From Armatimonadota bacterium (GTDB taxonomy: Bacteria > Armatimonadota > HRBIN16), in NCBI GenBank assembly GCA_026003175.1, contig BPGT01000001.1, positions 1,278,839-1,342,838 of the forward strand: a stretch of 64,000 nt of DNA, read 5' to 3'. Shown here piece after piece: positions 24,337 through 54,500 of this stretch. A program made the position numbers and the translations under genes. Below the pieces are notes generated by a model. The model had not been told where the DNA came from and ran no database searches. It worked only from the letters and a program-made list of their open reading frames with translations. Every line of letters starts with the position of its first letter. Positions within the stretch are counted from its first letter, which is position 1.

Positions 24337-24348
24337 CCCGGCGGGTTG

Positions 24349-24366
24349 CGCAGGCTACAGCCTGCG
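24349..24366. repeat. Short hairpin CGCAGGC-TACA-GCCTGCG
   Basis: Perfect 7-base arms 24349-24355 and 24360-24366, 13 bases after the small membrane-protein stop. No T-run. It stands at the left edge of a 230-base intergenic stretch filled with palindromes. Confidence 0.5.
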
Positions 24367-24382
24367 GCTACGCGAATCCCAA

Positions 24383-24446
24383 GGAGGGAGGGTGCTCCAT
24401 CGCCACCAAAAGTAAACGGCTCGGCGGGAGCCTCGCCCTCCCCGCG
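24383..24446. repeat. REP-like palindrome, second copy
   Basis: Left arm GGAGGGAGGGTGCTCC, right arm GGCTCGGCGGGAGCCTCGCC continuing CTCC. The right arm is the same element as at 15290-15314 with one or two changes. Probably non-coding. Confidence 0.6.
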
Positions 24447-24451
24447 CCTGT

Positions 24452-24511
24452 ATTGGAGGGACGCGCTCCGTTGCGTCCGATGTTGCATCACGACAGGGCG
24501 TGCCCCTCCAG
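24452..24511. repeat. REP-like palindrome, third copy
   Basis: Left arm TTGGAGGGACGCGCTCC, right arm GGGCGTGCCCCTCCAG, directly beside the previous element. Shares the TGGAGGG tips and inner GCTCC with the other two, with a different centre. Confidence 0.55.
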
Positions 24512-24567
24512 GTGAGGTAAGCGTACTTTTGCGCTTTGTATCTTGTGGAGCGTTTGGTTTTTTTTCT

Positions 24568-26535
24568 ATGCGCATCGCCTTACAGAAAAAACCTGCCCCC
24601 GCCCAAAAGGTGACCAGCGTACAACCAGCCGTGCTTCCCATCCGCTGGTGGACGGTGATGCTGGGACTGGTGCTTATCGTGCCCAACAACTACTGGGTGG
24701 TGTATATGGAAAAGGTGCGCACCGGTCCGTATCCCACCACCATCTCTATCTTCGCCAACTGCGTGTTCTTGCTGGTGGTGTTGCTGGTGGTCAATGCGCC
24801 GCTAAGACGGTGGTTACCGCGTGTCGCACTGAATCGCGCCGAACTGCTCACCGTTTATTCCATGCTCTGTCTGGGTTCTGCGCTGGCTGGACTGGACATG
24901 ATACCCGTGCTCGTACAGATGATGGGACATCCTTTCCAGTTCAGCAACGAGTCCAACGGCTGGCTGAACACTTTCGGCAAGTACCTTCCGCGCGAACTGA
25001 TGGTGACCGACTTAGACGCCCTGCGCGGATACTACCAGGGCAACGATACCCTGTACCGTTGGGAGCATCTGCGGGCGTGGTTGCCTCCTGTGTTGCGCTG
25101 GATGGTGTTCATCCTCGCGCTGTTATTCGTGATGCTGTGCCTCAGTAACCTGCTGCGCAAGCTGTGGGTGGAGCGTGAGCGGCTGACCTTCCCCATCGTC
25201 ATCCTGCCCCTGCAGATGACCGACGAGCGCGTTCCCTTCTGGCGCAACGGCTTGCTATGGGCGGGCATCCTGCTGGCAGGCGGAATTAACGTGTTGAACG
25301 GCTTGAACTACATGATACCCTCGCTGCCTGCCATCAACGTGAAGCATCAGGACCTGCTCCCCTACATTACCCAGAAACCCTGGAACGCCATCGGCTGGAC
25401 GCCGTACTCTTTCTATCCGTTCGTCATCGGGCTGGGCTATCTGCTGCCGCTGGACCTGGTGTTCTCTTGCTGGTTCTTTTACATCTTCTGGAAGGCGGAG
25501 CTGGTGGTCTCCAACGCCATGGCATGGGATACCATTCCCGATTTCCCCTTCATCCGCGAACAGGCGTTCGGCGGCTACATGGCTATACTGGTGTTCCTTA
25601 CGTGGACGGCGAGAGGGTATCTGAAAGCGGTCTGGCAAAAGGCGTGGCATGGCACAGGTGAGGTCTCCGACAGCGGGGAGGCGATGTCCTACCGCGCCAC
25701 GCTCATCGGGCTGATAGCGGGGCTGGCGTTTCTGGTGGGCTTTTTGTGGTATTACGGCATGTCGCCCGTGTGGGCGGTGCTGGCGGTGGCTATCTATTTC
25801 GCGCTCACGTTAGCGGTGATGCGCATGAGAGCAGAACTTGGTCCGCCAGTGCACGACCTGCACTTCTCCGGTCCCGACCATGTGATTACCCGCGCCTTCG
25901 GCACAGGCGCGCTAGACGGGCGTAGTTTGGCGGTGCTGAACTTCTTCTACTGGTTCAACCGCGCCTACCGCAGTCACCCCGCGCCCATTGTGATAGAGAG
26001 TCAGCGCATCGCGGGTTCGGCGAATGCCTCACAGCGGCGGATGGCGGTCGCGCTGATGCTGGCGGTGCTGGTGGGCGGGCTATCTTCCTTCTGGGCGTTT
26101 GTGCATCTAGGATACCAGCTGGGCACGGCGAGCAAGTTCTTTCAGGGCATCTGGTTCGGCAACGAGGCGTACAACCGCCTGGCCACCTGGATTGCCAGCC
26201 CCAGCAAACCCAACCCGCAGGCGAACTGGGCGATGGCGATCGGCTTCGGCATCTGCTCCCTGCTGATGTTCCTGCGCCTGAAGCTGCTGTGGTTCCCCTT
26301 CCATCCCATTGGCTTTGCCATCTCCGGCTCGTGGAGCATGAATCTGGTGTGGTTACCCCTGTTCATTGCGTGGCTCATCAAGTGGCTGGTGCTGCACTAC
26401 GGCTCCTTGCGCACCTACCGCCGACTGGAACCGTTCTTTCTGGGCTTGATGCTGGGCGAGTTCATCGTGGGCAGCATCTGGAGCCTGCTGGGTCTAATGA
26501 CCGACCTGCCTACCTACAGCTTCTGGGGAGCGTAG
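24568..26535 (+). CDS. Large polytopic membrane protein (DUF6784/DUF6785, OPT-like)
   Basis: 655 residues from the ATG at 24568; the frame remains open to 24346, but that stretch is repeat sequence. About 14 hydrophobic helices. N-terminal IRWWTVMLGLVLIVPNNYW, then a conserved-looking cytoplasmic segment LRKLWVERERLTFPIVILPL, QMTD, a long central loop, and C-terminal LKLLWFPFHPIGFAISGSWS with MNLVWLPLF. These fit a family of uncharacterised membrane proteins common in Armatimonadota and Planctomycetota that resembles oligopeptide transporters. Family name is from memory and only moderately sure; function is unknown. There is no good ribosome site at the chosen ATG. Confidence 0.7.
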   Translation: MRIALQKKPAPAQKVTSVQPAVLPIRWWTVMLGLVLIVPNNYWVVYMEKVRTGPYPTTISIFANCVFLLVVLLVVNAPLRRWLPRVALNRAELLTVYSMLCLGSALAGLDMIPVLVQMMGHPFQFSNESNGWLNTFGKYLPRELMVTDLDALRGYYQGNDTLYRWEHLRAWLPPVLRWMVFILALLFVMLCLSNLLRKLWVERERLTFPIVILPLQMTDERVPFWRNGLLWAGILLAGGINVLNGLNYMIPSLPAINVKHQDLLPYITQKPWNAIGWTPYSFYPFVIGLGYLLPLDLVFSCWFFYIFWKAELVVSNAMAWDTIPDFPFIREQAFGGYMAILVFLTWTARGYLKAVWQKAWHGTGEVSDSGEAMSYRATLIGLIAGLAFLVGFLWYYGMSPVWAVLAVAIYFALTLAVMRMRAELGPPVHDLHFSGPDHVITRAFGTGALDGRSLAVLNFFYWFNRAYRSHPAPIVIESQRIAGSANASQRRMAVALMLAVLVGGLSSFWAFVHLGYQLGTASKFFQGIWFGNEAYNRLATWIASPSKPNPQANWAMAIGFGICSLLMFLRLKLLWFPFHPIGFAISGSWSMNLVWLPLFIAWLIKWLVLHYGSLRTYRRLEPFFLGLMLGEFIVGSIWSLLGLMTDLPTYSFWGA

Positions 26536-26552
26536 ATAAGGATTGCACTCCC

Positions 26553-27581
26553 TCACTCCACCAGTATTGGGAACCGCCTTGCCATGTCCGGGTGCCGGTA
26601 GAAGTAGCTTCCTATCAGCAACGGCATCGCTACCTCAGGAGGTTTTCCGACATACTGCAAGAAGTCATGACGCTGGTTGTTCCTGCCAAGTCGATGCCAT
26701 TGAATACCCTCCCGATCCAGCTTCTCATACAGACGACACCACCGCTGGCGGATCAACACCATTTGGGTCTCTGGAGTGAGTGCTTTCACCTCCTTTTTCC
26801 TCTTCGGCCTGGGTTGCATCTCTGGTACTGTCAGTATTTCCTCGTCGTTCAAACCCATCAGGTATGCCAGCTGCACCAGCTCCAGCTGGCTACGCTCCAG
26901 GTGCAGCGAAGGCGCACCGTAGCAGAACATCTCATACAGATACTGATGGAACCGCCCTGTCCCTAGTAACCCATCCCGATCTGCACCCACAATGTAGGGC
27001 TTCCATCGCTGCGTGTTGGGCGGGAAACGCTCTGGTCTTCTCAACACCTCGCAGCCCATCCTGACATAACCTTGTACCTCCATATCACCGTACACCTCTT
27101 TAGTGAACGACTTGAGGTGTATCCCCCGATGCAGATGCAGGAAGCTTTGTACCAGCAATCTGCCTGCCCGATTCACACGCTCTTCAGGCAGGTCGGTACG
27201 CCAGCCGTAGAACCCCAGCAGGTTCAGCCCCATGTTTTGATCCCGGTGCGCCTTGATAATTTCGTGGCGAGCCAGCACGGGATGAGAGGTTCGCTGCGTG
27301 GAGCGATTCAGGGCGTTTTGTATGCACGTTTCGACGTGTCCATTTCCATGCCAAATCTGCGTGCGCAAACCGTCACTAATACACACGCTCAGCCCAAACG
27401 CCACGACGTGATCCGACTCGTCCACCACCACTGCCGAGAGCGCATGTCCTTCCTGCAACCACTCCTTCCACCGTCCCACTCGCTGCATGTTATCAGCACT
27501 GCTCAACGCCACTGCATCTCGGCTCAGTGCGGCACACTGCGGCACATCGTCCGGCGTGGTGAACCGCACTTGGAAAGGCAC
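26553..27581 (-). CDS. Hypothetical protein with acetyltransferase (GNAT)-like N-terminus
   Basis: 342 residues. The opening VRFTTPDDVPQCAALSRDAV and the strand ALSAVVVDESDHVVAFGLSV resemble the first part of a GNAT fold; the CoA-binding Q/RxxGxG/A loop is not evident. The C-terminal half (about 230-342) is basic and helical, with LTPETQMVLIRQRWCRLYEK and a Tyr/His-rich end. No family recognised. AGGAGGTG ten bases before the GTG at 27581 supports the start. Convergent with the membrane-protein gene, 17 bases apart. Confidence 0.55.
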   Translation of the reverse strand: MPFQVRFTTPDDVPQCAALSRDAVALSSADNMQRVGRWKEWLQEGHALSAVVVDESDHVVAFGLSVCISDGLRTQIWHGNGHVETCIQNALNRSTQRTSHPVLARHEIIKAHRDQNMGLNLLGFYGWRTDLPEERVNRAGRLLVQSFLHLHRGIHLKSFTKEVYGDMEVQGYVRMGCEVLRRPERFPPNTQRWKPYIVGADRDGLLGTGRFHQYLYEMFCYGAPSLHLERSQLELVQLAYLMGLNDEEILTVPEMQPRPKRKKEVKALTPETQMVLIRQRWCRLYEKLDREGIQWHRLGRNNQRHDFLQYVGKPPEVAMPLLIGSYFYRHPDMARRFPILVE

Positions 27582-27684
27582 TTGCTGCTCACCTCCTGAT
27601 TATCAGGTTCGCCGTAGAGTTCGCTAAACGCTACTGGAATTAGCATCACCGGTTGCCTATGTTAGAAAAGGCTGCCCAGAAGTA

Positions 27685-27714
27685 TTGATAAGCGCTCCAC
27701 AAGCGACGTAGAAT
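27685..27714 (+). promoter_or_regulatory. Promoter for the 27.7-kb envelope cluster
   Basis: TTGATA (27685-27690) and TAGAAT (27709-27714), each five of six consensus bases, with an 18-base spacer, 36 bases before the GTG of the first small gene. Confidence 0.55.
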
Positions 27715-27750
27715 CAGATCTACCGTTGATTATACCAGAGGTGGTCCGGG

Positions 27751-27948
27751 GTGTCAAAGAAGATTGAGATGTGGATAGAAAACGGTAATTACGTGGAAGC
27801 GAAGTGGTACGACGATAGTGACGGCAGCATCTACGTTAGCGGCACACACATCGGCGGCGCCAGAACCGTGAAAGATGCCATTGCGATTGTGGAGGTATAT
27901 GCGGAGAAGGCAAAAAGCTCCCGCGTGAAACGGGTGGATATAGTGTGA
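27751..27948 (+). CDS. Small hypothetical protein
   Basis: 65 residues from a GTG at 27751 (weak upstream GGTGGTCCGGG). Predicted strands and a helix: IEMWIENGNYVEAKWYDDSD, then TVKDAIAIVEVYAEKAKSS. No recognised family. Codon use is coding-like in this frame and it is the first gene downstream of a good promoter match, 42 bases before the lipase-like lipoprotein. Confidence 0.6.
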   Translation: MSKKIEMWIENGNYVEAKWYDDSDGSIYVSGTHIGGARTVKDAIAIVEVYAEKAKSSRVKRVDIV

Positions 27949-27990
27949 CCTTGGCACAATACAGATTTTGCCAGAGGAAGGTGAACCGGA

Positions 27991-29481
27991 ATGCGAACAC
28001 GAATTGGAAGGAGCAGTTTCATCATCTTCACCGTTGTCGCCACTGTGCTGGCGGTGCTGGCGGGATGTGGAAGCGGGCGGAGTGCTGATGCACCGCCCAA
28101 GCCACTCTGGGAAACCACGCGCGCCGTCGGACCTGAAGGTGCAACCATCGAAACCCCTGAGCAGTACGGCGCCAAGATAGAGATTGCACAGAATACATTT
28201 GAATCCACGACGCAGATTCGTGTCCAGATCTACCCCCCCGAGGCAGAGATGAGAAATCTGCCGCAAGGGGTGGTTCCATCGAGCCATCTTGTCCGTATTG
28301 AGTTTAGCGCTCCTCCCTCGGAACAACTAGGTGGCATTTCAATTACCCTACCCGTGTCAGCCAGTCGCCAGAGCGGTGACATTTGGCACTTCATGACTGC
28401 ATATCTCCCAACCGCTCCCGTTGTTATTCGGGGATGGCACGCTTCCGATACCGCTCAATCACGAAGTATAACGCTTCAACCTGACGAGCTCAAGTTACTA
28501 CTATTGGGAGCAGGCACAGCGCCATTAATAAAGTACCAGCTTATTACATATAACTCTACCCCACCTACTCTAGGACCGAGAGGTATGGTCCGGTGGGAGC
28601 AGAATCAACGACAATGGCAGCAGCAAACTCCTAATTGGGAGAATAAACATATCGCTATTCTTATTCACGGGATCCGCAATAATATTAGCAACTTGAGCGA
28701 CCTCGCGGAAAAGCTGGTTGGTTATGGGCTGTATGATGAGATATGGGGGTTCGATTACAATTGGACAATGCATATTAACCAGAACGGTGCGCAATTAGCA
28801 GATTACATTAGATCAAATGCTAAGGATACCACCCGAATTGACATTTATGGGCATAGCATGGGCGGTCTGGTTGCCCGCTGGGCATTAGAAAAGGGAGGCG
28901 CTTCACGCTATGTGGAGCGATTGTACACCATGGGTACCCCCCATCTTGGCGTACCTATCGACGACCCAGGAAATCTGCCCGGGAACTGGTTGGTGGTGCT
29001 AGACAATATTATTGCATTTGTTTCAGAACTCAATACTGACGGTGTGAAAGACCTGCTGGAGAACTCAGAGTTTCTAAGAAATCTCAATGATCTCAATGCA
29101 GGTTCACGCGCTGCCCAGAATACGGTTTACATTGTCTTCGCTGGGCGTAAACACGAAGACTACTTTGCTACTGGCCCCTTCTCGCTTGGGAATTATTTCT
29201 ATAATTACGTATACGAGAGGCTTCCCAATGATGGCATCGTTGCAGTATACTCTGCTACGCCCTGGCTGGCAGATCCCTCTTCCAACCAAAAAGCTGATAA
29301 TATTATACAGAATAGAAGGTGGAGCAAGATCACGGAGACCAAAGGAGCGCTGTGGGTGCAAGGTTCAGAACAGTCTCTCCCATTGAATCATTCGGAAATA
29401 AAAGTGCCAGATGCCCCAATCACTGACGTAGATGAGCTAGAAAATAGTGTTAAAGATAACACGAATGTAACCATCCGGTGA
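27991..29481 (+). CDS. Lipoprotein with alpha/beta-hydrolase (lipase-like) domain
   Basis: 496 residues. Signal peptide with lipobox LAGC (Cys 27). Residues about 45-175 form a beta-rich domain opening AVGPEGATIETPEQ, reminiscent of ZU5-like domains. The hydrolase follows: IAILIHGIRNN (oxyanion region), then IDIYGHSMGGLVARW with nucleophile Ser289, and a C-terminal stretch with ERLPNDGIVAVYSA and LPLNHSEI that could provide the acid and histidine. Similar to PGAP1/lipase-class serine esterases, substrate unknown. Visibly AT-richer than the rest of the window. Followed after 15 bases by the VWA lipoprotein. Confidence 0.8.
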   Translation: MRTRIGRSSFIIFTVVATVLAVLAGCGSGRSADAPPKPLWETTRAVGPEGATIETPEQYGAKIEIAQNTFESTTQIRVQIYPPEAEMRNLPQGVVPSSHLVRIEFSAPPSEQLGGISITLPVSASRQSGDIWHFMTAYLPTAPVVIRGWHASDTAQSRSITLQPDELKLLLLGAGTAPLIKYQLITYNSTPPTLGPRGMVRWEQNQRQWQQQTPNWENKHIAILIHGIRNNISNLSDLAEKLVGYGLYDEIWGFDYNWTMHINQNGAQLADYIRSNAKDTTRIDIYGHSMGGLVARWALEKGGASRYVERLYTMGTPHLGVPIDDPGNLPGNWLVVLDNIIAFVSELNTDGVKDLLENSEFLRNLNDLNAGSRAAQNTVYIVFAGRKHEDYFATGPFSLGNYFYNYVYERLPNDGIVAVYSATPWLADPSSNQKADNIIQNRRWSKITETKGALWVQGSEQSLPLNHSEIKVPDAPITDVDELENSVKDNTNVTIR

Positions 29482-29496
29482 AGGAGGCGAACTGTG

Positions 29497-30828
29497 ATGC
29501 GCATAACACGTACTATATGCTGGACGGTAACCGTGCTCAGCATGATGTGTATCCATGCTGGCTGTGGAGGGCTGCATAGGAACCAGCCTTCGAATGATGC
29601 AGGTGAAGGACGACTTGGAGCCACTGCTACCTTTACTATCCGCTGGCCACGAACCCGCCTGATTCCGCCTGGCACGAACCGAATAGTTATCTATGTGACC
29701 CACCAGCAGGCAAGAACTGTGTTTGCGTATGTTAAGGACAGAGCGCCTTCCGCAGCCGAGGAGCGTATCAGCGTTCCCATTCCGTATGGACAGGGAATTA
29801 CATTTTCTGCTGATGCGGTGCAGATAGACACCGAAAAGTATACCAAGGTACAACGGCTGCCCCTAGATCACCCAGACCTGCGCGCAGGCACTAAATTAGG
29901 TAGCGGACATGATGGTATGCCTCATGACGTGTCTTATAATAGCACTGTCACAGCTACTATCGAGATACAAGAGGCGGGCATGCCTGACGCCGGCACAACA
30001 CGCGTGGACCTGCGGGTGAATCAAATCGTCAGCGACTACTTCCCCCTGGTGCTGGTACTGGACCTTATACGCGATCAGAATGGCAACCCAATTACCAACC
30101 TCAATAAGCTTAATTTCGAAGTTTTGGAGGATGGGGTTCCTGCTCTCATCACGGATGTGCGGGTCATTAGCCAAACAGCGACAAGCCTCTCTATTTGTCT
30201 GGTGCTGGATCGCAGCGGTAGCATGTCAGGTCAACCCAATGCTGATCTGGAACAGGCCGCTTCCACCTTCGTTAATTTAATGCAGCCTGGCGATTATGGG
30301 GCTGTTATTAATTTTTCAAGTTTTTGGAGTATCGATCTCTCGCAAGACTTCACTCAAGATAAAAGCGCTTTGCTCGCTGCCATTAATGGACGCCAGGCCA
30401 GCGGTAGCACGGCACTCTATTCCGCTGTCTGGCTTGGTCTGGATATAACCTCTCAAAGACAGGGAGGCAAAGCGATAATCGCCATGACGGATGGAGGAGA
30501 CAACGATAGTGATAAAAGTCTTCAACAGGTGATCGATCGTGCCACCCTGACGGGGATTCCAATTTTCACGGTAGGGTTGGGCGGTTCTGGTTTCTACGAA
30601 TATCCGTTGCAACACATGGCTGACGAAACCGGTGGGCTCTATTTCTTCGCCCCTAGTTCCAGCCAGTTAGAGGCGATCTATCGAAGCATTTCGCTCCAGT
30701 TGCAAAACGCAGTCCAGATAAGTTTCATTAGCCCCGACCCACAACCGAGAGGACGAGAACGCACGGTAACAGTTCGCTTCCGCTACGGGCAATTTAGTGG
30801 CGAAGTGCAACACCGTTACACGTATTAA
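29497..30828 (+). CDS. Lipoprotein with von Willebrand factor A domain
   Basis: 443 residues. Signal peptide with a lipobox-like HAGC; then a beta-rich region and a short segment NFEVLEDGVPALITDVRVIS that resembles the domain preceding VWA in secreted proteins. The VWA domain has a complete MIDAS: DRSGS at 238-242, the Thr in SGSTALYSA and the Asp in AMTDGGDND. It would bind a protein ligand through a divalent metal on the cell surface. AAGGAGG nine bases before the ATG at 29497 (a GTG at 29494 is less well placed). Same operon as the lipase-like gene. Confidence 0.85.
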   Translation: MRITRTICWTVTVLSMMCIHAGCGGLHRNQPSNDAGEGRLGATATFTIRWPRTRLIPPGTNRIVIYVTHQQARTVFAYVKDRAPSAAEERISVPIPYGQGITFSADAVQIDTEKYTKVQRLPLDHPDLRAGTKLGSGHDGMPHDVSYNSTVTATIEIQEAGMPDAGTTRVDLRVNQIVSDYFPLVLVLDLIRDQNGNPITNLNKLNFEVLEDGVPALITDVRVISQTATSLSICLVLDRSGSMSGQPNADLEQAASTFVNLMQPGDYGAVINFSSFWSIDLSQDFTQDKSALLAAINGRQASGSTALYSAVWLGLDITSQRQGGKAIIAMTDGGDNDSDKSLQQVIDRATLTGIPIFTVGLGGSGFYEYPLQHMADETGGLYFFAPSSSQLEAIYRSISLQLQNAVQISFISPDPQPRGRERTVTVRFRYGQFSGEVQHRYTY

Positions 30829-30874
30829 GAGATCTCAACACTAACGTATATACACAACGGAGGTGAACAAAGAA

Positions 30875-31411
30875 ATGCAAACATGTCCTGTATGTAATGC
30901 TCCTGTACCACCAGGTACGCGGTGGTGTCCTATATGCCACGTGAACGTGCTCAACCCCCAGGCGGGGAAACTAGCATCACCTGGGAAGCGTTTCGGAGCG
31001 TATGTTTTCGATACGCTCATACCATTCTTCGTTGTGTGGACCGCTCTATGTGGCGGAGGAGGGCTGGCTATGTTTTCAAGCAGCCAGAAAGAGGACCTTA
31101 CTGGAGCCGTGACTGGAGCCGTGGTGTACGGGATGTTGCTAATCCTCCTGGGTCTGGGTTATGCCATCTGGGCTCTACTGCTTTTCGTGCAGGGAACCAC
31201 CCCCGGCAAGTATCTGCTAGGGATGTATGTGGTTAAGGAAGATGGTTCGCGAGCTGGCTTTTGGACAATGCTGTTCCGTGAATGGATCGGCAAGTTTGTT
31301 TCAGGGCTCTTTTTGGGCATTGGCTACCTGTGGGTTTTCCTGAACAAGGACAGACAGGGATGGCACGACATGGTAGCTAGCACATACGTGGTGGAGAAGG
31401 TAACAAGTTGA
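30875..31411 (+). CDS. RDD family membrane protein with zinc ribbon
   Basis: 178 residues. N-terminal zinc ribbon CPVC-x11-CPIC, then the RDD domain: GKRFGAYVFDTLIPFFV, about three to four TM helices, GTTPGKYLLGMYVV and FREWIGKFVSG. RDD proteins are small inner-membrane proteins of mostly unknown, sometimes transport, function. GGAGGTG nine bases before the ATG at 30875 fixes the start; an in-frame GTG at 30863 lies inside that ribosome site. Lies 46 bases after the VWA gene and 32 before the CsgG-like gene. Confidence 0.85.
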   Translation: MQTCPVCNAPVPPGTRWCPICHVNVLNPQAGKLASPGKRFGAYVFDTLIPFFVVWTALCGGGGLAMFSSSQKEDLTGAVTGAVVYGMLLILLGLGYAIWALLLFVQGTTPGKYLLGMYVVKEDGSRAGFWTMLFREWIGKFVSGLFLGIGYLWVFLNKDRQGWHDMVASTYVVEKVTS

Positions 31412-31443
31412 TATGCATCTCAACACAGAAGGGGGGGCGCAAG

Positions 31444-34045
31444 ATGTCACTTCGGCATCTTCGTGCGGTTGTCATATTGGTCCTCGTTCTGGGTGCAGTA
31501 CAGGCTGTAGCTCAAATGCAGTATCCTGTAAAGCACCTACCCATGTTAGAGAAACTACCTTGCTACGTGTTGCCCCCAGCAGACTGGGGTGTGGAGGAAA
31601 TAGTCTGGTTGCTTAAGAGCCTGATAATAACGCTTGAAGAGGACGCACGCGCTACGGACAAGAGAAAGACACTCGTTATCGTCTCCGATTCTGTGACCGA
31701 AGCGACCATCGGAAGAATGAAAGCGGAGATCGAGAAGGAGACGAGCATCAAGTTGGAAAGGGTCGCTCTTAGCAGAACCAGTCTATCCCCAGAGGTCGTG
31801 CGCAAGATAGTAGATGACAAGGGGGTACGTTTCGTCTTTGTCAACACCTTGCAAAAGAAACAGCTTTCTGCAGAGATAGTGGAACAGGTCAAAGCCGTCT
31901 CTAAGCAAGGGGTTGACCTGCTGAACCCTCCTGAAGGACAGGCGGGCTTCCGGGTATGCTGGCAATGGGGGCAAAAGAAAAAGGAAAATCAGATGTGGGT
32001 TATTGTTTATGCCCCCGGTTTGAGCACCATGCATTATGTATTAGGCTCGTGTCTGTCGGCCGTAGCGCACGATGGAGGTAATCAGTACCGAGAGCCATCA
32101 GACGCAGTAGAGGTTGCTCTCTGGGCTTTCGTCGCAGACGACGATGTGTGGAAGCATGAACAACGGTTGAAACTGACAGAATGGATAGAGTCGCGAGCCC
32201 TTAAACAGTTTCCGCTGATAGAGGCCAAGGGATGGCTTCGTCCCGAGGATCTAAGCGCGGACACTCGACAGGTTTTAGATGAAGAAGGATGGAACTACCT
32301 GTTCCTGGTAACGCGAGAAAATCTGGCATCACTGAACCGCGAAGCTGCAGAGGTACTTGCTCCACTGAAACAATCTATAGATAGCTTGTCTGCCTCTCAA
32401 TCAGCAGTTCTGGTAGTAGAGAGAGGGCCAGCGAAGGTCGTTTGTTATGTCGCTCCGACCATCGGTCTGTTACGGCGGTTGGTTAACGAACACAAGGACT
32501 TTATGAAGGTACGCACAGTGAAGATAGATGTACCCGATCTGAGCTGGGTACGTCGGGTAGCGGTGGCTTTTACGAAGCATGCAGTGGACACCATGCCTCA
32601 AGGGGCGCGGAGTCGTTTACTGGCAGAGCTTAAAAGAGGTCTTCCGTACTGGCAGATATACGATGAAAGTGTTCTATCCAATCTCTTGCGTCTAGAAGAG
32701 ATTAGCATACACGGACTACCTGGAGGAGCAACGATTCAGCGCCCCCAACAGCGCGTTACTGTAGACGCTCTCCTTGTCATTGAAGCCAACGCGTACAACC
32801 TCGACCAGCCCAAGTGGGTAACCAGTCAGGATTTTGAAGTGCTGGATAAGGTTACCCTACCTATTTCCCAGTGCGAACCTACACCCCCTTATAGCGACAA
32901 GCGCGATGATATCATAGAGTGGATAACACTCCATCGCGGGTGGGTTCAGGACAAAGAGCGGTTTAAGGCAGAGTTGGCACAGCGTCCCGTGCGTGTCCGC
33001 ATCCCTGTTACTGCTGAAGAAGCATGTGAAATAGAAATCTCTTGTGCTCTTATCGACCTGCGCTCGGACTCAACGCAGTATGGTCTTCCGATCTCTGCAG
33101 ATATGGTGTTACCCAAGTTATCCGTGCGTTTTGTCCATCAACGAGAACAACGCCTCAGAGAGGGGTTGACTACCTACCGTTTGGAAGAAGTGAACCACGC
33201 CCAGATGGAGAAGATAGTACCCGCGGGAAGACTGGGGCCGCTTCAACTTTATAGGAGGATATATCCGGCAGGGCACGCGGTAGGCACGCCTGGAGTAGTT
33301 GGCGGTGTGGAACGTTATAACAACATGTGCCTCCAACTGGTTCCTAACCCACCTCAGCTCGCGGAACCTCTGCCACCTCTACCTTTCAACCCAGAGTCCC
33401 CTGCTGTGACAGGCGCTTGCGGGGAGGTAGCCGCAGGTGTGCGTAACTGGCTGGAGGCCACAGCGGTGTTCGACCCAAACGTGAAGGCATCGCCAGCCGC
33501 GCCTCCAGGATATGTTGGTAAAGTACAGCAGGTGACAGAGCGTACGATCACGATAAGCCTCGAGGGGATAGAAAAACTAGGAACAGGCGATTGGGTCGAG
33601 GTGCGCTGTAGCGATGGGACTATTCCGAAAGCGAAGGTCGAGCGCGCGGATAGAAACACGGCTGAGGCGGGTACTGCATCAATCAACGCAGGGTATCGTC
33701 CCCGGAGATCAGGTTTTCCGAACCGCGCCACCACCCACGCCTGAGGCTAAAACAGAGGGTAAAGCTCCTGACTACATAGCTATCGACGAGGAAGTGTCCG
33801 TAGTAGTTCCTTCGAAGCAAAAACCCGCAGGGGCCATGCTGGAATCGCTAAAACAACAAGCCTTAAGAAAAGCTGCTCAAATCCAGACACAGTCTGTCCG
33901 GAGAAAATACGGGATGGTTGTTCCACAAAACGAACTGCTGAAAATAGCAATCGTCACATCTCACAAGTGGGATGCAGCGCGTAAGCAGTCTGTTATTCGG
34001 GTTCGTTTCCGCGGTAACATACCGGGGCGTAAGGAGGTACCATAG
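31444..34045 (+). CDS. Exported CsgG/FlgT-like protein (apparent frameshift near 33690)
   Basis: Signal peptide (cut after AVA), a long N-terminal region (PPADWGVEEIVWLLKSLI, KTLVIVSDSVTEA), a CsgG-like stretch near residues 375-460 (WVRRVAVAFTKHAVDTMPQG, PYWQIYDESVLSNLL), then a C-terminal FlgT_C-like strand set: GYVGKVQQVTERTITISLEG, LGTGDWVEVRCSDGTI, KAKVERADRNTAEAG. This frame stops at 33744. The expected closing motif GIVPGDQVFRTAP lies in the next frame, which continues to 34045 with a basic tail. Removing one base around 33680-33690 gives one protein of about 866 residues. Known CsgG and FlgT proteins work in outer-membrane assembly and the flagellar basal body; the exact role is unknown here. 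Confidence 0.65.
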
Positions 34046-34050
34046 AGGGT

Positions 34051-35253
34051 ATGCGAAGGGCAGTCCTCTGTTGGATCCTGTTGTTGTGCGCTGCCTCTGG
34101 GCAGGAAACACGCCATCAACCTGTTTACAGGCTGGTCGAGGCAGAGGGTAGAGCGGTGGTAGTCGCCAGCAACGAGGTGGCGGCCCGAGACGCCGCGAGA
34201 GCGGATGCTATTCGCAGAGCGGTTGAGCAGGTTGTGGGCACCTACGTAGAGAGTGAAAGCCTGGCTGAAAACTATCAACTGGTTTACGATCGCATCTACA
34301 CACGTGCTCATGGTTTTGCAACGATCGAGCGTGTGTTACAAGAAGGATCCATCGGTGGTACATATTACATACGCATAATAGCTAGAGTCTTCATGGTGCG
34401 CGACGCTGACGGAAAGGATGCGCTCTTGATGGCACTGAAAGAGCAAGGCTTGCTACGCCAACTCCGTGTGATGGTAGTTATTCCAGAGCAACATGTTCGC
34501 GAGAACAACACGTCTCCAACTGTCTCCGATCCAGCGGCGGAAACGGCAATCGTGCGATTGCTGGCACGTTCTGGCTTTAAGGTGGTGGACCAACAGTTTA
34601 GCAGAAAGATTCGGGACTCGCGCGTGATCAAAGAGCTGATGCGAGGGATGGCTGATCAGCACCAGCTACATAGCCTGCGCGATCGATACGGAGCTGATAT
34701 TATCGTGGTCGGAGAGGCATTCAGCCAGAGAGTGCCGCCCCCAATGGATGCTGGAAACATGGTTTTCTGCCGCTCCCGTGTGGAGATTAAGGCGATCTTA
34801 TCGGAAACGGGTGAAATTATCTGCGCAGATGCAGAGCACGGCTCTGGACGCGATCTGTCCGAGCAGCTGGCGAGCAAAAGGAGTTTAGAACAAACTGCGG
34901 ATGCGCTTGCGCCAAGGTTGATTAACGACCTTCTTGTCGGCGGATATGGAAGCCCTGGACGAGCAACTACGAACGTGGAATTAGAGATCAGCGGGTGGCG
35001 CAAGCTGTCGGATGCTCAGCGGTTTCTAGACACCTTGGAGCAGATACGCGGTGTACGCCATGTGCATCTGTCCGAATTTAAAGGGGGCGTCTTGTTTGCG
35101 GAGGTGGAACTGGATCAAGGTCTCAAGAAGCAACTAGCGGCGATACTGGAAGATCTGAAAGGCTTCACTATAGAAATAGAAGCGGCGTCAGGAAGCAAGA
35201 TAGAAGGAACAGTGACAAGGATTGCATTGCCAGTCCGCCAACAAGGCAAGTAG
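34051..35253 (+). CDS. FlgT-like exported protein
   Basis: 400 residues, signal peptide (cut after AASG). Residues about 25-115 match the FlgT N-terminal domain: VEAEGRAVVVASNEVAARDA, ARADAIRRAVEQVVGTYVES, then a GTYYIRIIARVFMV strand. Residues about 130-285 form a CsgG/LpoB-like middle domain (RVMVVIPEQH, LLARSGFKVVDQQF, YGADIIVVGEAFSQ). The C-terminal 110 residues are a further alpha/beta unit. FlgT stabilises the H-ring of Vibrio flagella; no other flagellar gene is present here, so this is probably a related envelope protein. It begins five bases after the 34045 stop. Confidence 0.72.
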   Translation: MRRAVLCWILLLCAASGQETRHQPVYRLVEAEGRAVVVASNEVAARDAARADAIRRAVEQVVGTYVESESLAENYQLVYDRIYTRAHGFATIERVLQEGSIGGTYYIRIIARVFMVRDADGKDALLMALKEQGLLRQLRVMVVIPEQHVRENNTSPTVSDPAAETAIVRLLARSGFKVVDQQFSRKIRDSRVIKELMRGMADQHQLHSLRDRYGADIIVVGEAFSQRVPPPMDAGNMVFCRSRVEIKAILSETGEIICADAEHGSGRDLSEQLASKRSLEQTADALAPRLINDLLVGGYGSPGRATTNVELEISGWRKLSDAQRFLDTLEQIRGVRHVHLSEFKGGVLFAEVELDQGLKKQLAAILEDLKGFTIEIEAASGSKIEGTVTRIALPVRQQGK

Positions 35254-35270
35254 TCCACCACCCACCAACC

Positions 35271-35300
35271 TTGCCAATCTCCCCTCTTTCCAGATATACT
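35271..35300 (+). promoter_or_regulatory. Promoter of the kinase-regulator pair
   Basis: TTGCCA (35271-35276), 18-base spacer, TATACT (35295-35300), 29 bases before the GTG start at 35329. Good match in both hexamers. Confidence 0.6.
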
Positions 35301-35328
35301 CTTAAACGGCAGTTTCTGTGGGGAGATT

Positions 35329-37114
35329 GTGGCTTTGAGCAAGCATCAAACATATCGACAGACCCTGCAACGGCTGAGCAGGGTGGCGAGGCAAGCGGTT
35401 TCACAAGCGGACATCGACCGGTTCCTTACCAGTGCGCTACAAGAGGGCATGAATCTGGTAGGGGGCTTTCGTGCCTTCGTCGCGCTGGTAGACGAGGATG
35501 CCGGCGAGCTGGTCATCCACAGCGCGCTGGGACCGGGCTGGGATGAGCAAAAACGCCAGAGCCGCCTACAGGTAGCGCAGGAGGAGGGCAAAGGCATCAC
35601 CGGCTACGTCGCCGCCACGCAGCAACCGTATTGCACGGGCGACGTGAGCCACGACCCACATTATCTCCAGTTCTTCGAGGACGTGGTTAGCGAAATGGCG
35701 GTTCCTATCGTGGACGCCTACGGGCGTACGCGGGGTGTTATCAACATCGAATCCGACCGCCCCAACGCCTACGATGAAGAGGATATGGAAGCTATCGCTC
35801 TGCTCGCCGACCTGTGCTTGACCGCGCTGAACCTGCACCAGTCGCGCCTGAGGCAGGAAGCTCTGGTGCAAATCGGCAACGAGTTGAGCACCTCCGAGGA
35901 CCTGGACGACCTGATGCAGACGGTGCTGGACGTGGCAGCGAAGGTGCTGCGCTTTGAAGACTGTTCGGTGTTCCTGATAGACGACGACCGCAAGCGGTTG
36001 AACCTGGTGGCGTCTAGCAGCGCCCTTCGCGAACAGGTGGGCAAGGTCTCCTACCCGCTAGGCGAGGGGCTAACAGGCTGGGTGGCTCAGCATGGCGAGC
36101 CTATCCGCACCGCCAACCCGCGTGAGGACCCCCGATGGCGTGGTATCGCCAGCGAGATGCCGGTGGAGCAAATCGGCGCGTTTCTGGCGGTTCCTGTGTG
36201 GGGGCACGAGCGCACAACCGGCGTGATTCGCGTGGTACGACGGCGCAGTCTCGCTCCCTGGTTCGATAACCGGTTCACGGATGACGAGATGGAAGTGCTC
36301 TCCGCCATCGGCAGCCAGCTGGGTGCGGCGATAGAGAGCCTGAACATGCGCCAGCGACTGGTGCAGACCGAGCGCATGGCAGCATGGGGCGAGATGTCTG
36401 CCAAGGCAGCGCACATGATTGGCAACCGCACCTTCGCCATTAAGGGCGACCTGAACGAGGTGGAATATCTGCTGCAGCAGCCAGAGGTGGACCGCGAGCA
36501 GCTGACGGAACTCATCGGCAGTATCCGGCGAGGGGTGTCGCGCCTCGAGGAGATACTGCATGAGTTCCGCGATTTCGTGATGGCGACGCACCTCAGTACA
36601 GGGGTGGATAATATCAACAATATCATCGCGCAAACAGTGGCAGAAATATTCCCTCGGCGTGGTCCCGTGCAGCTGAAACTGAGCCTGCACCCGCAACTGC
36701 CCAACATCCGCTGTGACGCGGTGAAGCTCAAGCGATGTTTCGCAGAGATGATAGAGAACTCGCTCAGCTTCCAGCCGGAAGGCGGCGAACTGCACATCAG
36801 CACGGAACTAGTGGACGCGCGATCCTTGCCCACAAGGCTGGGCGTGGCACGCAACAAGCAGTTCGTCCACGTCCGCTTCTGCGATAAGGGACCGGGGGGT
36901 ACCTGCCGACATCAAGGAGAAGATTTTCCAACCCTTCTTCAGCTCGCGCGTAAAGGGGATGGGATTAGGGCTGTCTATTGTGAAGGGTATTGTGGAGGCG
37001 CACCGGGGCTTCGTGTACGAGGACGGCGTGCCCGGCGAAGGGGCGTGCTTCCACATCCTGCTGCCGGTCAACGGGAAGCCGGCAGTTGACACTACCGAAG
37101 GCAAGGAGCGATAG
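35329..37114 (+). CDS. GAF-GAF sensor histidine kinase, disrupted by a frameshift in a G6 run
   Basis: Soluble kinase: two GAF domains (about 20-170 and 185-340), dimerisation helix with phospho-acceptor His362 in AKAAHMIGNR, then the ATPase: CDAVKLKRCFAEMIENSLSF (N box) and FCDKGPG (G1). At the G6 run 36894-36899 the reading frame changes; the as-read frame ends at 37089 with nonsense, while skipping one G gives VPADIKEKIFQPFFSSRVKG and MGLGLSIVKGIVEAHRGFVY, i.e. F and G2 boxes, ending at 37114. So the intact gene would encode 594 residues. The following response regulator begins 12 bases later. Input signal is unknown; no membrane segment is present. Confidence 0.85.
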
Positions 37115-37126
37115 TGAGGAGGTTAT

Positions 37127-37585
37127 ATGTACAGGATACTGGTGGTAGACGACGAAGAAGAGGTACGCTATGCGCTACAGCGACGCCTGCAGCGCGAGGG
37201 CTATCAGGTAGACCTCGCTGAGGGCGAGAGCGACGGCATCGAGAAAATCCGGCAAGCGTCCCCGGCGTATGACGTGGTCATTACCGATATGGCGATGGAG
37301 AACCCGGATAGCGGCGTGCGCATCCTGGAAGCCGCGCTGGCGCACGACCTGTTCAGCGAAGTGATTGTGCTCACCGCCTATGGAAACGTGGCGAACGCGG
37401 TGGAGTGTATGCGCCGCGGTGCCTTCGACTACGTAGAGAAGAACATCCCCGGTGTGGATGTGTACGAGCTGCTGGTGCTCAAAATCGAGCAGGCTCTCGA
37501 ACGGCGCCGCTCGGCGGTGAACACTCTGCGCCGGATGGAGGAGATTACCCGTCGTTTGACCTCATCGATCAGGCGCGGCGACTAG
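37127..37585 (+). CDS. Single-domain response regulator
   Basis: 152 residues. CheY-like receiver: VVDDEEEVRYALQRRL, phospho-acceptor Asp54 in VVITDMAM, Thr/Ala switch VIVLTAYG, and Lys in FDYVEKN. About 30 residues of helix follow with no DNA-binding domain. Partner of the GAF kinase directly upstream. TGAGGAGG lies eight bases before the ATG. Output is probably by protein contact. Confidence 0.92.
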   Translation: MYRILVVDDEEEVRYALQRRLQREGYQVDLAEGESDGIEKIRQASPAYDVVITDMAMENPDSGVRILEAALAHDLFSEVIVLTAYGNVANAVECMRRGAFDYVEKNIPGVDVYELLVLKIEQALERRRSAVNTLRRMEEITRRLTSSIRRGD

Positions 37586-48532: not shown

Positions 48533-51500
48533 TTATGGCAGTATCAGTTCGCATTCCACGTTCGCTTTAATCCAGTAACCCTTCCACGGCTCCAGTCTGT
48601 TCTGGATGCCCGGTATCAGGCTGGCGTCATAGATGAGCACGTACGAGCCGCGATTGGGGTCATTTGCGTCTTGCTGCCAGCCCCACGCATAATCTTCTAT
48701 CCAGCCCGCCTGTTGCGCTTGCGCCAGAGTCAGTATCTGCTCGTCCTTGCGCACACGTATCTGCTGCACGTCCCACACCACGGCGCCCTGCGCCTGCGGG
48801 ATGCCGAACAGGTTCCAGCCGGGTTGCAGGCGGATGGTACTGGGCGCTTTCACCCCCGACAGCAAGCGGTCTACCGGAGCGGACAGTCGTACCCAGTACG
48901 CTTTGCCCGGTTCCAGAGCGGTCACATCGTTGCCCACGCGGTACGTGCCCGCCACCGGATCCCACCAGGCAATGCGCAGTTGCGTGGGGTCAATACCCAA
49001 CACGCTGGCTGGATTGGCGTCCAGCGGAAGCATCGGGATGGAGATGAGAGAGAGACCTGTCGGGAAGGTGTTGCCCAGCCGCAGCGGCACCACCTCCACG
49101 CTCTGTTGCAGGGTGTTGTCGTACTCGTTCATCTCCTCCACCGTATCATCGGGGTCTACCACCACCGTCAGGTCACGGGTGAGCAGTCCCCGATGCGCAT
49201 CCCACAGCACCGACACCATTTGCTGCTGACCGGGTTGCAGATTATCGATGCTTGCCTCGCCGATGTTCTGCGAGCCGTGCAACAGGCGTACCACCACACC
49301 GCTGGCAGGTTCGTCGCCCTCGTTGACGACCCTCACGCTCAGGCGGGTCTGCCCTTCCGCTTCGTCGGCGAGCAACCGGGTCGGTCGCAGGTTGGGCAAG
49401 CCAATGGCGTTCACCTGTGCCGCGCTGTCCAGAGTCGCCTGCTCTAGCCCGGACTCAGCGACTATCTGGAAGGTATACACGCCCTTCGCCACGAACACGC
49501 GGCTATCGCCCGAGCCGTTCCATGTCACGCTGAACTGTCGGTCACGGGGCTCGAAGGTGAAGCGTCGGACGATGGCGCCTGTGTCGCTCGTGTCGGTTCC
49601 GGCAAACACGTTCACCGTGACGTTGGCAGGCTGCGACAGGTTGAAGCGCAGGGTGACCGCCTCGCGCCCAATCTTGAACTGCTCGCGCGAGAGCGAGACG
49701 CCGGTGATGGTCAGTGCGCCCTGTGCCAGCTGGATCGTTTTCTCCACCACCTGTTCGGTCTGCGTGCCCTGCGCCGGGATGTGCAGGCGGATGGTGTAAG
49801 TGCCTACGGGCAACGGCTGGTCTGCGTCATCTTTGCCGTCCCAACTCAGCTGCTGCGGTGTGGCTGGCATCGGAGCAAGCGCGTGCAGGGTGCGAACCAC
49901 CTGCCCGGCACTATCCAGCACCAGCACCTGCACAGGTGCTTCACCCGTGAGCCTGAACTGTATGTTCACAACGTCGTCGATGCCGTCGCCGTTGGGGCTG
50001 AACGGATTGGGAGCCACCTGCACGTCTTTCATCTCTACAGGAGCGGACAGGTTCACCGTAAACGTCCACTCCGCGCTGCCCACGTTACCCGCCAGGTCGG
50101 CGGCGGAAACCCGCACATGGTGTTCGCCTTCGCTCAGCGCGGATGTGGGCTGATAGCGGAGGGTGGCGCTGGCGGCGTCGTAGGTGGCGGTGACGAGGTT
50201 GCCGTCCACCAGCATCTGCAGGCTGTTCGGGTTGACCATCCCGCTATCCAGCACCCGGGCGAGAATCAGCGGCTGTGCAGAACGCACCGTTTCGCCAGAG
50301 GCGGGCGCAACCGCTATCACCTGTGGCGCGATAGCATCCACGCTGCTCAGCGGTATCCAGCCGGTGGACGCTGTGATGTTATTCTGCAGCAGGCTCACCA
50401 CCACCATGCCTGTGGAGCCGCGTGCCGGCACATGGCTGACGGTGACGGTGAACGGGAACTGCTGACCCGGTGCCAGTGCGGGAATGGAAACCGCCCCTGC
50501 CGATACCAGTTCAAACGCCCCGGATACCTGTATCTGCGCGTTCGCTGGCGAGGAGAGGGCTGCGCCTTCGTTGCGCACTACCACCTGCACCTGCTGCGTG
50601 CCATCTGGCTGCGGTGTGGCTGTGCCGCTGACATACAGCACGGCGGGAACCTGCACGCCCAGCGTCTGCATACGCTGGATTGCCTGTTCCACCTGCGTCT
50701 CGGAGGCAGCGGTGAGCGCGATGGCTTCCTCCAGCGCGTTGTTGTAGGTTTGCACCGCGTTTGCTGCTTGCACGGGGTCTGAAGATTCGATGAATCCGGC
50801 AACCGCCGCCAGCAGCTGCATCCGACGAGCAGTGCCTCGGTCCACGATGTCCACCGCCGCTCCTGCCTGTGCGGAGAAGCTGGGGTCTATGGCGGAACCG
50901 TCCAGCCAGTTCTGGTTGAGCACCTGCTCGCGGGCGCGGATGCGCTCGTTCACCTGCGCGGTGGAGGCGATGAACTCATTCACTGCAGTCTGCAGCTGCT
51001 CGGGAGTAATCTGGTCGCTGTTCATCAGCGCGGCGAGCCGTCGCGCTGCCGCCTCGAACTGCGCCGCCTGGCGGGTGCGTGCTCCGTACACGCCGCGTCC
51101 ACCGGTGCCGGTCAGCCAGCTGGTTATCTCGTTCAGCAGGTTGGGACTCGTCCAGTACTGTATCCAACCGGGTTCCTGTTCGCCAACCAGGTTGTAATCC
51201 CAGATAGCCGAGTGAGCTGCGCCCACACGCCCCCACACGATGGGGGTAGTTACTGCCTGAGCCACCTTGCCTACAGGCAGCAGCCCGTCCGCGACGGAAC
51301 CAATGAAATTGAGCACATGCGCCCACCAAGGTACGTTGCCCAGCAGCACATCGCGCGAGCTGCGCAGGGTATCGTTGAGCCAGCCGGTTAGCAATCCAAA
51401 CGGTTGTCCAATAGCTTCACGCCACTGGCGGTCGTTCTGGATGGTAGCGCGCACTTCCTGGATACGGCTGCGTATCAGAGAGTCGTCCCCAGGCAGCTGT

Positions 51501-54500
51501 CCCGTTTCCCGGACAATCCGGTCTACGGTTGCAAGCTGTGCCAGAGCGTTCGTCTCGTCTCCCTGCCAGCTGATTTCGACAGCAGGCCATACCACCGCCG
51601 ATACCACGCTATCGTATACACCGGTGAGGGAAACGGTGAAGTTATCCTGCACCGCTTGCTGAATCAAGCCGTCGATACTGCCAAAGACGCTGCCAATGAC
51701 CCGTCCTACGAGCTCGTTATCGGTGTTGAAGACACCCTGTTCCACCGTCTTCCACGAGCCGAAAGTGATCGGCAGCTTCTGCAGTAGACCCGTTACCTCA
51801 CCGCGTACCGCGGAGACCAGACCTTCCAGAGCCGCCTGTATACGGGTTCGCTGGGTTGTCAGCGCAGCCACAAAGGCATCCGCAGAGCCGACCGAACCGG
51901 GGAACTCCTGCAGGTAGCGCGTCTTCACCAGGTTCAGGTTGGCGTCGCTCATGCCGTTTTTCAGGATGTTCAGCACGTCATCGTAGAACGGGCGATGGAT
52001 AGCGGGGTCCAGATTCACAAGGCGCATGGTCTCATCCAGCGCACCCTTCGCCAGTTTCTCATTGAGCTTGAACCCCTGGAGGGCGGTGAACGAGTCGGTT
52101 GCCTTTTCGAAGAGTTTGAGCTCACCGGCGAAGAAGAGCAGGATGTCTACAAACGCTTTCACCAGTTCCTCGCCGTACTGCTTTCTGGCTTCATAAAACT
52201 CTTTCAACGCAGGCACTGCCACTTCTAGGCGAGCAGCTGCGCTGAGCAGGCTCTGCAATTTCTGCTTGTCCTGACCGGTTTGCTGTGCCCACTCGCGCAG
52301 GTAGCGGGTCAGCGGTAGATTGGGGAAACCGGTTTCTGCCGTGAATCCTAGACGGAACTTGTCCTGCATGGGTGTCATGACGCGAATCAGGTCCCACACG
52401 CGCTGTTCGAACTGCATCGCCTGGTCGTTCAGCTCCACTGCGGGCTCCGGAGGCGACAGGATAGCGAGGTCGAAGCTGCCCGATGGGTCGGTGTACACAC
52501 GTGGGTCGGTATCATTATCCTGCACGACGGCGCGTATCTGCACGTCGGCGATGGGAGCGTACGGTTTGTTCAGTTGGCGTTCAACGACTATGCCCCGTAC
52601 CGCGCCGGGCAGTTGCGACACCGTCGATCCCTCGGTGGGTAAGGGCGCACTGACGTCCTCGAACCCCAGTTTGCTGTAGCGCAAGAAAGCGTTTTTGTAC
52701 ACAAGGAACCGACGGGTAGCGGTCAGCTGCGGTATCTCCTCATCGGTAGCGGTGACTTCCACGCGGATGAACGGCTCCGTGAGGTTCTGAGGCGGGTTGT
52801 AGCGCACCGCCAGAGGCAGTTCCTGCAGCTGCTCGCCGGTACTGCCTGCGCTCACCTCGATGCGGAAGCGGCGTCCTCTCACAATCGTACCCGTTTCCAC
52901 TGCGGGCAAGCCCGTTTGCGGACGCACCTGTATCTGCAGGTCTTTGCCCAGCGCCGCACCCACCGCGCCGTTAAAGTCCGATCGCCCTAACATGCTTTCG
53001 GGGATGGCGTACACCTGCACGCGCAGGTCTTCCGGCAACAGTTTGAAGTCGTGCGTTTCGGTCTCCGTGCCGCGGCTGTCTATGGTGAGCGCGTATTCGC
53101 CTTCTGCATTCGTGCGGAGAGTGCCTCCGTTCTCCACAACCACCGTGGCGTTGCGCAGGGGTTTCAGTTGCAATGTCTGGTCATCCTGAATTTGCCACGC
53201 CATCACCTTACCACGCAGTTCCTTCAGCCCCTGTCGCAGTTCCACCTCCACGTCGCCTTCGGGGTCTATCTGCTGGTAGCCTGATGCCTCCGCGTGGTAG
53301 CGGATGGTGGTCACCGCCAGCGCGGTGAAGCTCTTTTGCGCGGTCTCAACCGGTGCACCGGGCGGTGTCATCACCGCTTCGTAGCGAGCCTCGACGGTGG
53401 CTTGCAGCTCGCCCGGTTCCTCCACCAGCAACACGAACACGAACTGTCCGTTGCGCCCGACGGCACGCCAGTCTTCGTTGTACGACACGGTGGGCGAGAG
53501 CGTCGTGGGCAGCAGCTTGCGCAGGCTACCCCGCAGGCGCACGATCGCGTTCGTTACAGGTTCTTGAGTCTGCGCATCGAGCACCACGCCCTTAATCATC
53601 ACCGTTGCCGTGCCCTTGAAGGGGATACGGATGGGATTGACAAATTGTCCCGTTTCGGTCATGGGTGGGTCGGTGAAGCGAATGAGTAGCGGTGCGCTCT
53701 TCACCCGCAGATCGCGCGATTGTGCCACCGCACCCTCGCAGCCGGTCGCGGTTGCGGTCGCCCGAATCACGCCGACGAAGTCTCCATCTGGTGTGCTCGC
53801 AATCGCGCGAGGTGTGTTGCGCAGGGTGACTCCAGCCAGAAAGACGCCCGTACCACCGAGCGGTTTCAGCACGACGGTCTGGTCACCGTTATCGAAGTCC
53901 ACCTTGACCAGTGCCTGGCTCAGGTCGCCGTCGCCGCTGATGCGTACCCGCACGTTGCCACGCCAGGGGATGTTGAAAGGCTCCTGTACCGGATCAAAGC
54001 CTGCAAGACCAGCCTCCAGAAAATCTATGCTCTCGATGCGCAGGTTGCGTGGCACCTGCTTGTACAGCTCCTGCAGTCGCTGCTGGGCGATATTCATCGC
54101 CTCGTCCGCACTGCGCGCACAGACGGTGACAATCACATCGCGCATGCACAGCTTCAGCTTGAGGTTGGATATGTTCCAGAAGTGTCCATCGTTGAAGTTG
54201 CTCTTTCGGATGTCCACCCGTCCACCCGGAGGCGTGCCCATCGACACGCTGACAGAGGGCTGGTTGGCGCAGTGCCGAGCGTATATCTCCCTCACCAGCA
54301 CTCTGGAGCCCAGGTTGACCTCGTATAGCTGCGAGTCGGGCGGGCAGTCGGTGTTGACGGTAATCTGCAGAGGAGGCTGGTTGCCCTCCCAGATGCGCAG
54401 GTTGCCTATCGCCCGCGATCTAGCGCGAACCAGAGCCTGTTCCGCTGGGCTGAGCAAACGCACTGTACCAGCAGGCACGCGAGCAGAGCGCGTGTTGTTC

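Follow-up and report, generated by a model that had tools for sequence, protein, structure and literature searches.

A probably acquired two-unit envelope island of an Armatimonadota bacterium with a putative H-ring-like FlgT/CsgG-type pair

A run of co-directional envelope genes in the genome of an Armatimonadota bacterium raises the question of whether its members form one surface-assembly system or whether some of them belong to a module with relatives elsewhere. The window, by which is meant the whole 64,000-nucleotide stretch analysed, corresponds to C1:1278839-1342838 (contig C1) of a 4.1 Mb genome. Seven open reading frames (ORFs) on the same strand make up the run, at 27751-27948, 27991-29481, 29494-30828, 30863-31411, 31408-33744 (g4), 33614-34045 (g5) and 34051-35253 (g6), with intergenic gaps of at most 42 bases or, should the 33614 ORF not be genuine, of 306 bases ahead of g6. 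A sequence-only reading had described six co-directional genes with short gaps; the order and strand stand, but the count is unsure because the 31408 and 33614 ORFs overlap in different frames. On balance, and with moderate confidence, we take g4 and g6 to be an extra copy of an H-ring-like outer-membrane scaffold that is not tied to flagella, lying on a probably acquired island of two separable units.

The FlgT-like protein

The last gene of the run, g6 (34051-35253, plus strand), specifies a putatively exported FlgT-like protein, predicted to consist of an SHS2-like N domain with a hairpin, a TolB-N-like middle domain and a C-terminal alpha/beta domain. A Foldseek comparison of its model with the PDB gave FlgT first (8z5n, E 3.2e-11; 3w1e, E 4.7e-11) and CsgG thereafter (E 3.0e-7), which bears out the structural CsgG/FlgT relation that had been proposed for the 34051 product. 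Pfam FlgT_N was matched with an E-value of 3.8e-5 but at 24.6 bits, below the cut-off of 28.8; ten of the 17 members of the g6 family match it at E <= 0.01, the best with 1.3e-9, and the structural model is consistent with such a domain. A profile match to a lipoprotein of the Campylobacter jejuni motor scaffold was also obtained (E 1.9e-7).

The N domain of the model comprises a strand (residues 26-36), a helix (42-62), a hairpin (65-85, with strands 65-73 and 76-85) and two further strands (88-101 and 104-115), the hairpin being inserted between helix 42-62 and strand 88-101. According to PMC12222027, FlgP, Lpp20 and FlgT have the SHS2 fold in common, and the formation of rings is correlated with the presence of an insert that separates the SHS2 helix from the second strand. 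As modelled, g6 appears to carry a hairpin insert of the type tied to ring formation in FlgP/FlgT. The middle domain (model residues 137-296) superimposes on TolB with a root mean square deviation of 2.6 over 121 residues and is TolB-N-like by this comparison; the VIA Z-scores for g6, which derive mostly from this domain, were 12.2 for TolB, 11.2 for FlgT and 10.8 for CsgG. Residues 305-391 form an alpha/beta domain in the model, and 8z5n nonetheless aligns up to residue 381. The likeness to FlgT of the Vibrio H-ring thus lies in the succession of an SHS2-like N domain and a TolB-N-like middle domain, while the C-terminal domain of g6 is not recognised as FlgT_C.

A second FlgT-like gene is present on contig C7 of the same genome. 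In 200 bootstrap trees the genus rows never formed one group, and the g6 of the island does not, therefore, represent a close copy of the contig-C7 gene. It groups with two rows from family f31 (support 100/98), the long branches of which call for caution.

The large exported protein and the overlapping ORF

The partner gene g4 (31408-33744, plus strand; the start may be 31444) specifies a large, putatively exported protein of 778 amino acids, which is characterized by family profiles and weak single matches. Profiles built with its relatives place a CsgG-like stretch at about residues 344-463 and a FlgT_C/SH3-like stretch at about 694-763. Pfam CsgG is matched by five of 14 g4-type family members at E <= 0.01, and when the g4-type and CsgG-type alignments were compared by hhalign the probability was 87% over 76 columns. 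This is where the likeness to CsgG, FlgO and TolB-N lies; the difference is that g4 has about 340 residues before the CsgG-like stretch and the SH3-like stretch after it. With g4 as a single sequence against six partners, hhalign gave 98.95% for that at L072 and less than 4% for the other five; the strongest single homologue is in family f31 (G210). Against PDB profiles only marginal matches to the FlgT tail were found (E 0.013-0.017), and none that was relevant with a smaller alignment. The description of two CsgG/FlgT-like proteins is accordingly upheld for g6, through structure and a FlgT_N match below cut-off, and in part for g4, which itself has no Pfam match, does not reach the CsgG cut-off, and looks weakly CsgG-like only through its relatives.

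The ORF g5 (33614-34045, plus strand) shares the terminal 131 bases of g4, read in a different frame; it may either continue g4 beyond a frame change or be a small gene in its own right. A frame break in g4 was considered and is unsupported, since g4 and g5 joined with X at the junction gave a profile score of 16.6 versus 18.6 bits. In genome G039 (L033 14525-16925) the g4-type gene before a FlgT-like gene also consists of two overlapping ORFs, of 439 and 366 amino acids.

Recurrence of the pair in the Armatimonadota

FlgT-like proteins, called with profile A1 at E <= 1e-8 with some matches partial, are present in 72 of 291 genomes of the phylum. At the loci examined the FlgT-like gene frequently has a g4-type gene, or a shorter one of the CsgG type, beside it, and frequently an LPP20-type gene in its vicinity. 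These associations were then assessed on 20 Armatimonadota FlgT-like loci absent from profile building, neighbours being genes on the same strand within 4 kb. A CsgG-type neighbour was found in nine, in seven of which it is a long g4-type gene directly upstream; an LPP20-type neighbour was found in four, and either partner type in 11. The 12 control loci (167 genes) contain neither partner. They comprise L066, L071, L075 and L108-L116, fetched for lipase, VWA, a kinase flank or, in the case of L075, a weak g4 match; L070, L072 and the window, which hold parts of the cluster, were excluded. Five of the 20 held-out contigs are shorter than 5 kb. In the examination of loci that preceded this comparison, the FlgT-like gene itself was not called in L038, L048 and L143.

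Complete trios occur at, for example, L049, L050, L073 and L134, and L072 has a g4-type gene without a FlgT-like neighbour. One ORF of G036 joins a g4-type stretch (368-856) to a FlgT-like stretch (852-1206), and in a Deltaproteobacteria metagenome-assembled genome a CsgG-type gene stands immediately ahead of a FlgT-like gene. The LPP20-type profile matches FlgP-named entries (E 3.2e-8 and 6e-7) and the C. jejuni motor scaffold lipoprotein (E 2.5e-18), its C-terminal part matches the OmpA-type chain 5jir (E 1.6e-14), and six of the 12 LPP20-type members match Pfam LPP20. Because of these structure, Pfam and profile matches, the three neighbour types are regarded as those of the Vibrio H-ring (FlgT-FlgO-FlgP); in Vibrio fischeri and in Colwellia the locus tags of these H-ring genes run consecutively (PMC6375700, Table 4).

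The window genome has a trio of its own on contig C7, with two CsgG-type genes (by Pfam) and FlgT-like and LPP20-type genes (by profiles only, the LPP20-type copy being without a Pfam match). The island contains CsgG-like and FlgT-like genes and no LPP20-type gene, and so lacks the three-partner composition of the H-ring, in contrast to the many FlgT-like genes of the phylum that have an LPP20-type gene beside them. What had been proposed as a CsgG/FlgT-type envelope module is retained for the last two genes, the types of which recur as a pair in the phylum, and not for the others.

Several relatives have further features. A 1401-amino-acid ORF (L043 7161-11366) has g4-type and FlgT-like stretches in one frame and is a possible natural fusion. 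The two CsgG-type proteins of contig C7 (L050 9008-11367) also score for an S-layer homology (SLH) segment, one at 21.0 bits versus a Pfam cut-off of 20.8 and the other just below it. Genomes of family f2 share a protein of 62-66% identity near FlgT-like and LPP20-type genes (L032 9814-11904, L034 8192-10279, L036 2247-4331), and the L032 copy contains caspase-like (Peptidase_C14) and SLH domains.

The genomic island

The island extends from about 26536 to 35262, as defined by an empty site in three sister genomes (blastn) together with low GC and low G+C at third codon positions (GC3). Against G004, G003 and G007 the flanking blastn blocks stop at 26533-26535 and restart at 35261-35271, and in these genomes they are separated by 9, 33 and 34 bases, respectively; since the blocks nearly abut, some 8.7 kb is extra in the window genome. 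The left block stops at the stop codon of gene 24568-26535 and the right one restarts ahead of gene 35329-37089. The corresponding distance in G002 is 156 bases; in G001 and G005 the right-hand neighbour (35329-37089) is preceded by different genes, and that neighbour was not found in G006, G008 and G009 at E <= 1e-60.

The five larger island genes have GC3 values of 0.49-0.56, each of them below those of all 35 other window genes of at least 450 bases (0.70 +/- 0.05, minimum 0.573), and the cluster is thus more than chance as a block. The values for the first gene of the run (0.636) and for the divergent gene 26553-27581 at the left edge (0.659) lie inside the host range. Among nine same-genus genomes g4 was found in none, and only G002 holds the lipase and VWA genes. 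No mobility genes were recognised in the island. Horizontal acquisition is the simplest reading and most likely accounts for this distribution, the alternative being repeated loss in several sisters.

The separable envelope genes of unit A

The genes ahead of g4 are referred to as unit A and the g4-g6 part as unit B. Unit A starts with a protein of 65 amino acids (27751-27948, plus strand) that belongs to no family and has no Pfam match, and the homologue of which holds the same relative position in G002. It is followed by a lipoprotein with a DUF676/PGAP1-like alpha/beta hydrolase domain (27991-29481, plus strand; Pfam E 1.5e-9, above the DUF676 cut-off), in which a GHSMGG motif was seen by eye, and by a VWA-domain lipoprotein (29494-30828, plus strand; Pfam VWA E 2.9e-17) with a DxSGS motif, likewise seen by eye, and a score above the NCBIfam TIGR03436 cut-off (108.5 versus 81.25 bits). 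Both have N-terminal signal peptides ending in the sequences LAGC and HAGC, respectively, which by eye are lipobox-like. The last gene of the unit (30863-31411, plus strand) specifies an RDD membrane protein (Pfam RDD E 1.4e-24) with a weak N-terminal zinc-ribbon match. The earlier assignment of these three products as lipase-like, VWA and RDD proteins is thus confirmed. In passing the family cut-offs, the VWA protein and the lipase resemble the acidobacterial VWFA proteins of TIGR03436 and the DUF676 esterases; they differ in being paired as adjoining lipoproteins in the window, G002 and G036.

In G002 a divergent gene, an M48 peptidase gene and homologues of the small protein, the lipase (55% identity), the VWA protein (69%) and the RDD protein, the last split over two frames, are followed by host sequence with no trace of g4-g6. 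This copy of unit A is flanked by other genes and lies some 4.6 kb upstream of the site that corresponds to the island. In G036, from a different family, the lipase and VWA genes (43% identity for VWA) adjoin, and no RDD or FlgT-like gene is present within the 20 kb read. Homologues of unit A at E <= 1e-5 were seen only in G002 and in loci fetched for lipase or VWA, the search covering 672 proteins of the other fetched loci; the fetched FlgT-like loci had no lipase, VWA or RDD homologue at this threshold. Two matches in FlgT-like loci fell short of it: that of L042 gene 17 (E 1.9e-5) to residues 14-105 of the VWA protein, a stretch outside its VWA domain, and that of the zinc-ribbon-like L051 gene 4 to the RDD protein (E 0.011). 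Because G002 and G036 hold unit A genes without unit B, and FlgT-like loci are without unit A, the two units are separable; joint transcription in the window genome is possible. The same observations led us to reject the joint six-gene system that had been suggested, the units having been found apart in other genomes when co-occurrence of the gene order was checked, except within the pair.

Proposed function and alternative explanations

As we picture it, unit A would be a separable envelope passenger with its own role, and unit B (g4 and g6) a copy of a widespread Armatimonadota module composed, where complete, of CsgG/FlgO-type, FlgT-like and LPP20/FlgP-type proteins. After export of both g4 and g6, the SHS2 domains of g6 might form a polymeric ring at the outer membrane, on which the TolB-N/CsgG-type domains of g6 and g4 would stack as a collar, and this collar could reinforce the outer membrane or guide an envelope machine. 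Since the island has no third partner, the pair may use the LPP20/FlgP-type protein of contig C7, or may work without one.

A number of results weigh against this picture. g6 has no Pfam FlgT_C match; its model has a predicted local distance difference test (pLDDT) score of 77, falling to 61-67 in the hairpin region, and a low predicted template modelling score (0.46), and its whole-chain TM-scores are about 0.3, for which reason the domain arrangement is uncertain. VIA Z-scores similar to those given above were obtained for CT253 (12.1) and for PelC and HpaA (10-11), and likewise for LptE, so the middle domain, with a fold common to these proteins, is not FlgT-specific on its own. The model of g4 (pLDDT 35) is too poor for a fold search, and to this must be added that g4 itself matches no Pfam family, that Pfam CsgG is matched by just the five of its 14 family members, and that the hhalign alignment covers 76 columns. 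Neither partner was present in nine of the 20 held-out loci, which were hand-chosen, several coming from the families of training proteins (f13 and f17).

A different explanation would make the pair and its relatives genuine H-ring parts in Armatimonadota that bear flagella, the island copy being a spare or exchanged flagellar part. The families of the partners are indeed those of the H-ring, and the absence of flagellar genes noted earlier holds for the cluster but not for the genome, in which FliG and an FlhA-family gene lie some 161 and 230 kb past the window end. In a sample of 61 genomes, moreover, FlgT-like proteins and FliG agree in presence, FliG being found in 20 of 24 positive versus 14 of 37 negative genomes (p 0.0006); ten of the 24 belong to the genus of the window. 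Over the 291 genomes, on the other hand, FliG is found in 50 of 72 FlgT-like-positive and 144 of 219 negative genomes (p 0.67), i.e. without association. Because the absence of FliG had been judged from a single family, FHIPEP was searched as a second marker: of the 22 FlgT-like-positive, FliG-negative genomes seven have an FlhA-family gene, which may belong to a type III system, and 15 have none. Nine of these 15 are at least 90% complete, the match reaching the N domain in five and not in four. In G047 (95% complete) a single gene run holds the whole trio, and neither FliG nor FlhA was found in this genome. The ten window proteins scanned (24346-37582) matched no flagellar family except FlgT_N, nor was any flagellar gene recognised next to the FlgT-like loci, where no scan for flagellar families was made; in its surroundings, and in occurring where FliG and FlhA were not found, the g6 family differs from FlgT of the Vibrio H-ring. 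The FlgT-like family does not look tied to flagella, two marker families being a limited test. A flagellar role is possible in flagellated members, of which the window genome may be one, and for them it is a live alternative; as an account of the pair and its relatives we consider it unlikely, though it deserves serious attention.

Two further explanations appear improbable. If the lipase, VWA and RDD proteins worked with the CsgG/FlgT-like pair, so that the whole cluster served a single envelope or secretion system, the single co-directional run with short gaps would be expected, and the low GC3 of both halves suggests joint residence and perhaps one donor; G002, with unit A and not unit B, the lone lipase-VWA pair of G036 and the fetched FlgT-like loci devoid of unit A homologues all argue against it. 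The island might equally be an assortment of accessory envelope genes, some of them decaying, that has no current function, a view to which we give just as little credence. The overlapping ORFs at the end of g4, with a possible frame break, the RDD homologue in two frames in G002 and the patchy distribution, g4 having been found in none of the nine sister genomes, would fit decay; the remaining ORFs are nevertheless open across the 8.7 kb, the lipase and VWA motifs are in place, and the frame test lent a break no support.

Other features of the island and window

The divergent gene at the left island edge (26553-27581, minus strand) is acetyltransferase-like by eye only, and gave no Pfam or PADLOC match. 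A homologue also heads the G002 island, another copy lies elsewhere in G004 and a fragment is present in G009. A sigma-70-like site matching at 12 of 12 positions, with a TG extension, faces this gene (27757-27729, minus strand), and one matching at 10 of 12 positions faces unit A (27685-27714, plus strand); overall, such sites are no more frequent than chance (8 versus 6.6 expected). That the locus is a defence island was considered and rejected, PADLOC at E <= 0.01 giving a single weak match, of the RDD protein to the end of PD-T4-6 (E 0.0055). At 48533-59602 (minus strand) one ORF of 3689 amino acids specifies a very large protein unrelated to the island.

Implications

Each of the protein types discussed here is already known. 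What is new is that an H-ring-like trio recurs in the Armatimonadota without being tied to FliG, and that an H-ring-like module is present on an envelope island; a non-flagellar FlgT/CsgG/LPP20 trio was not described in the titles or abstract openings of the limited literature searched. It is conceivable, though at present doubtful, that the Armatimonadota possess a flagellum-independent outer-membrane ring machine, derived from H-ring relatives and moving between species on envelope islands. If such a machine is real, the flagellar H-ring would be one of the uses to which an older and general ring module of the outer membrane has been put. Should rings of the trio form without flagella, the FlgT-, FlgO- and FlgP-type proteins would constitute a general outer-membrane scaffold borrowed by flagella. 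G047 and its relatives are genomes in which the scaffold can be tested without a flagellum, and CsgG-, LPP20- and FlgT-type proteins of unknown function would thereby gain a testable role.

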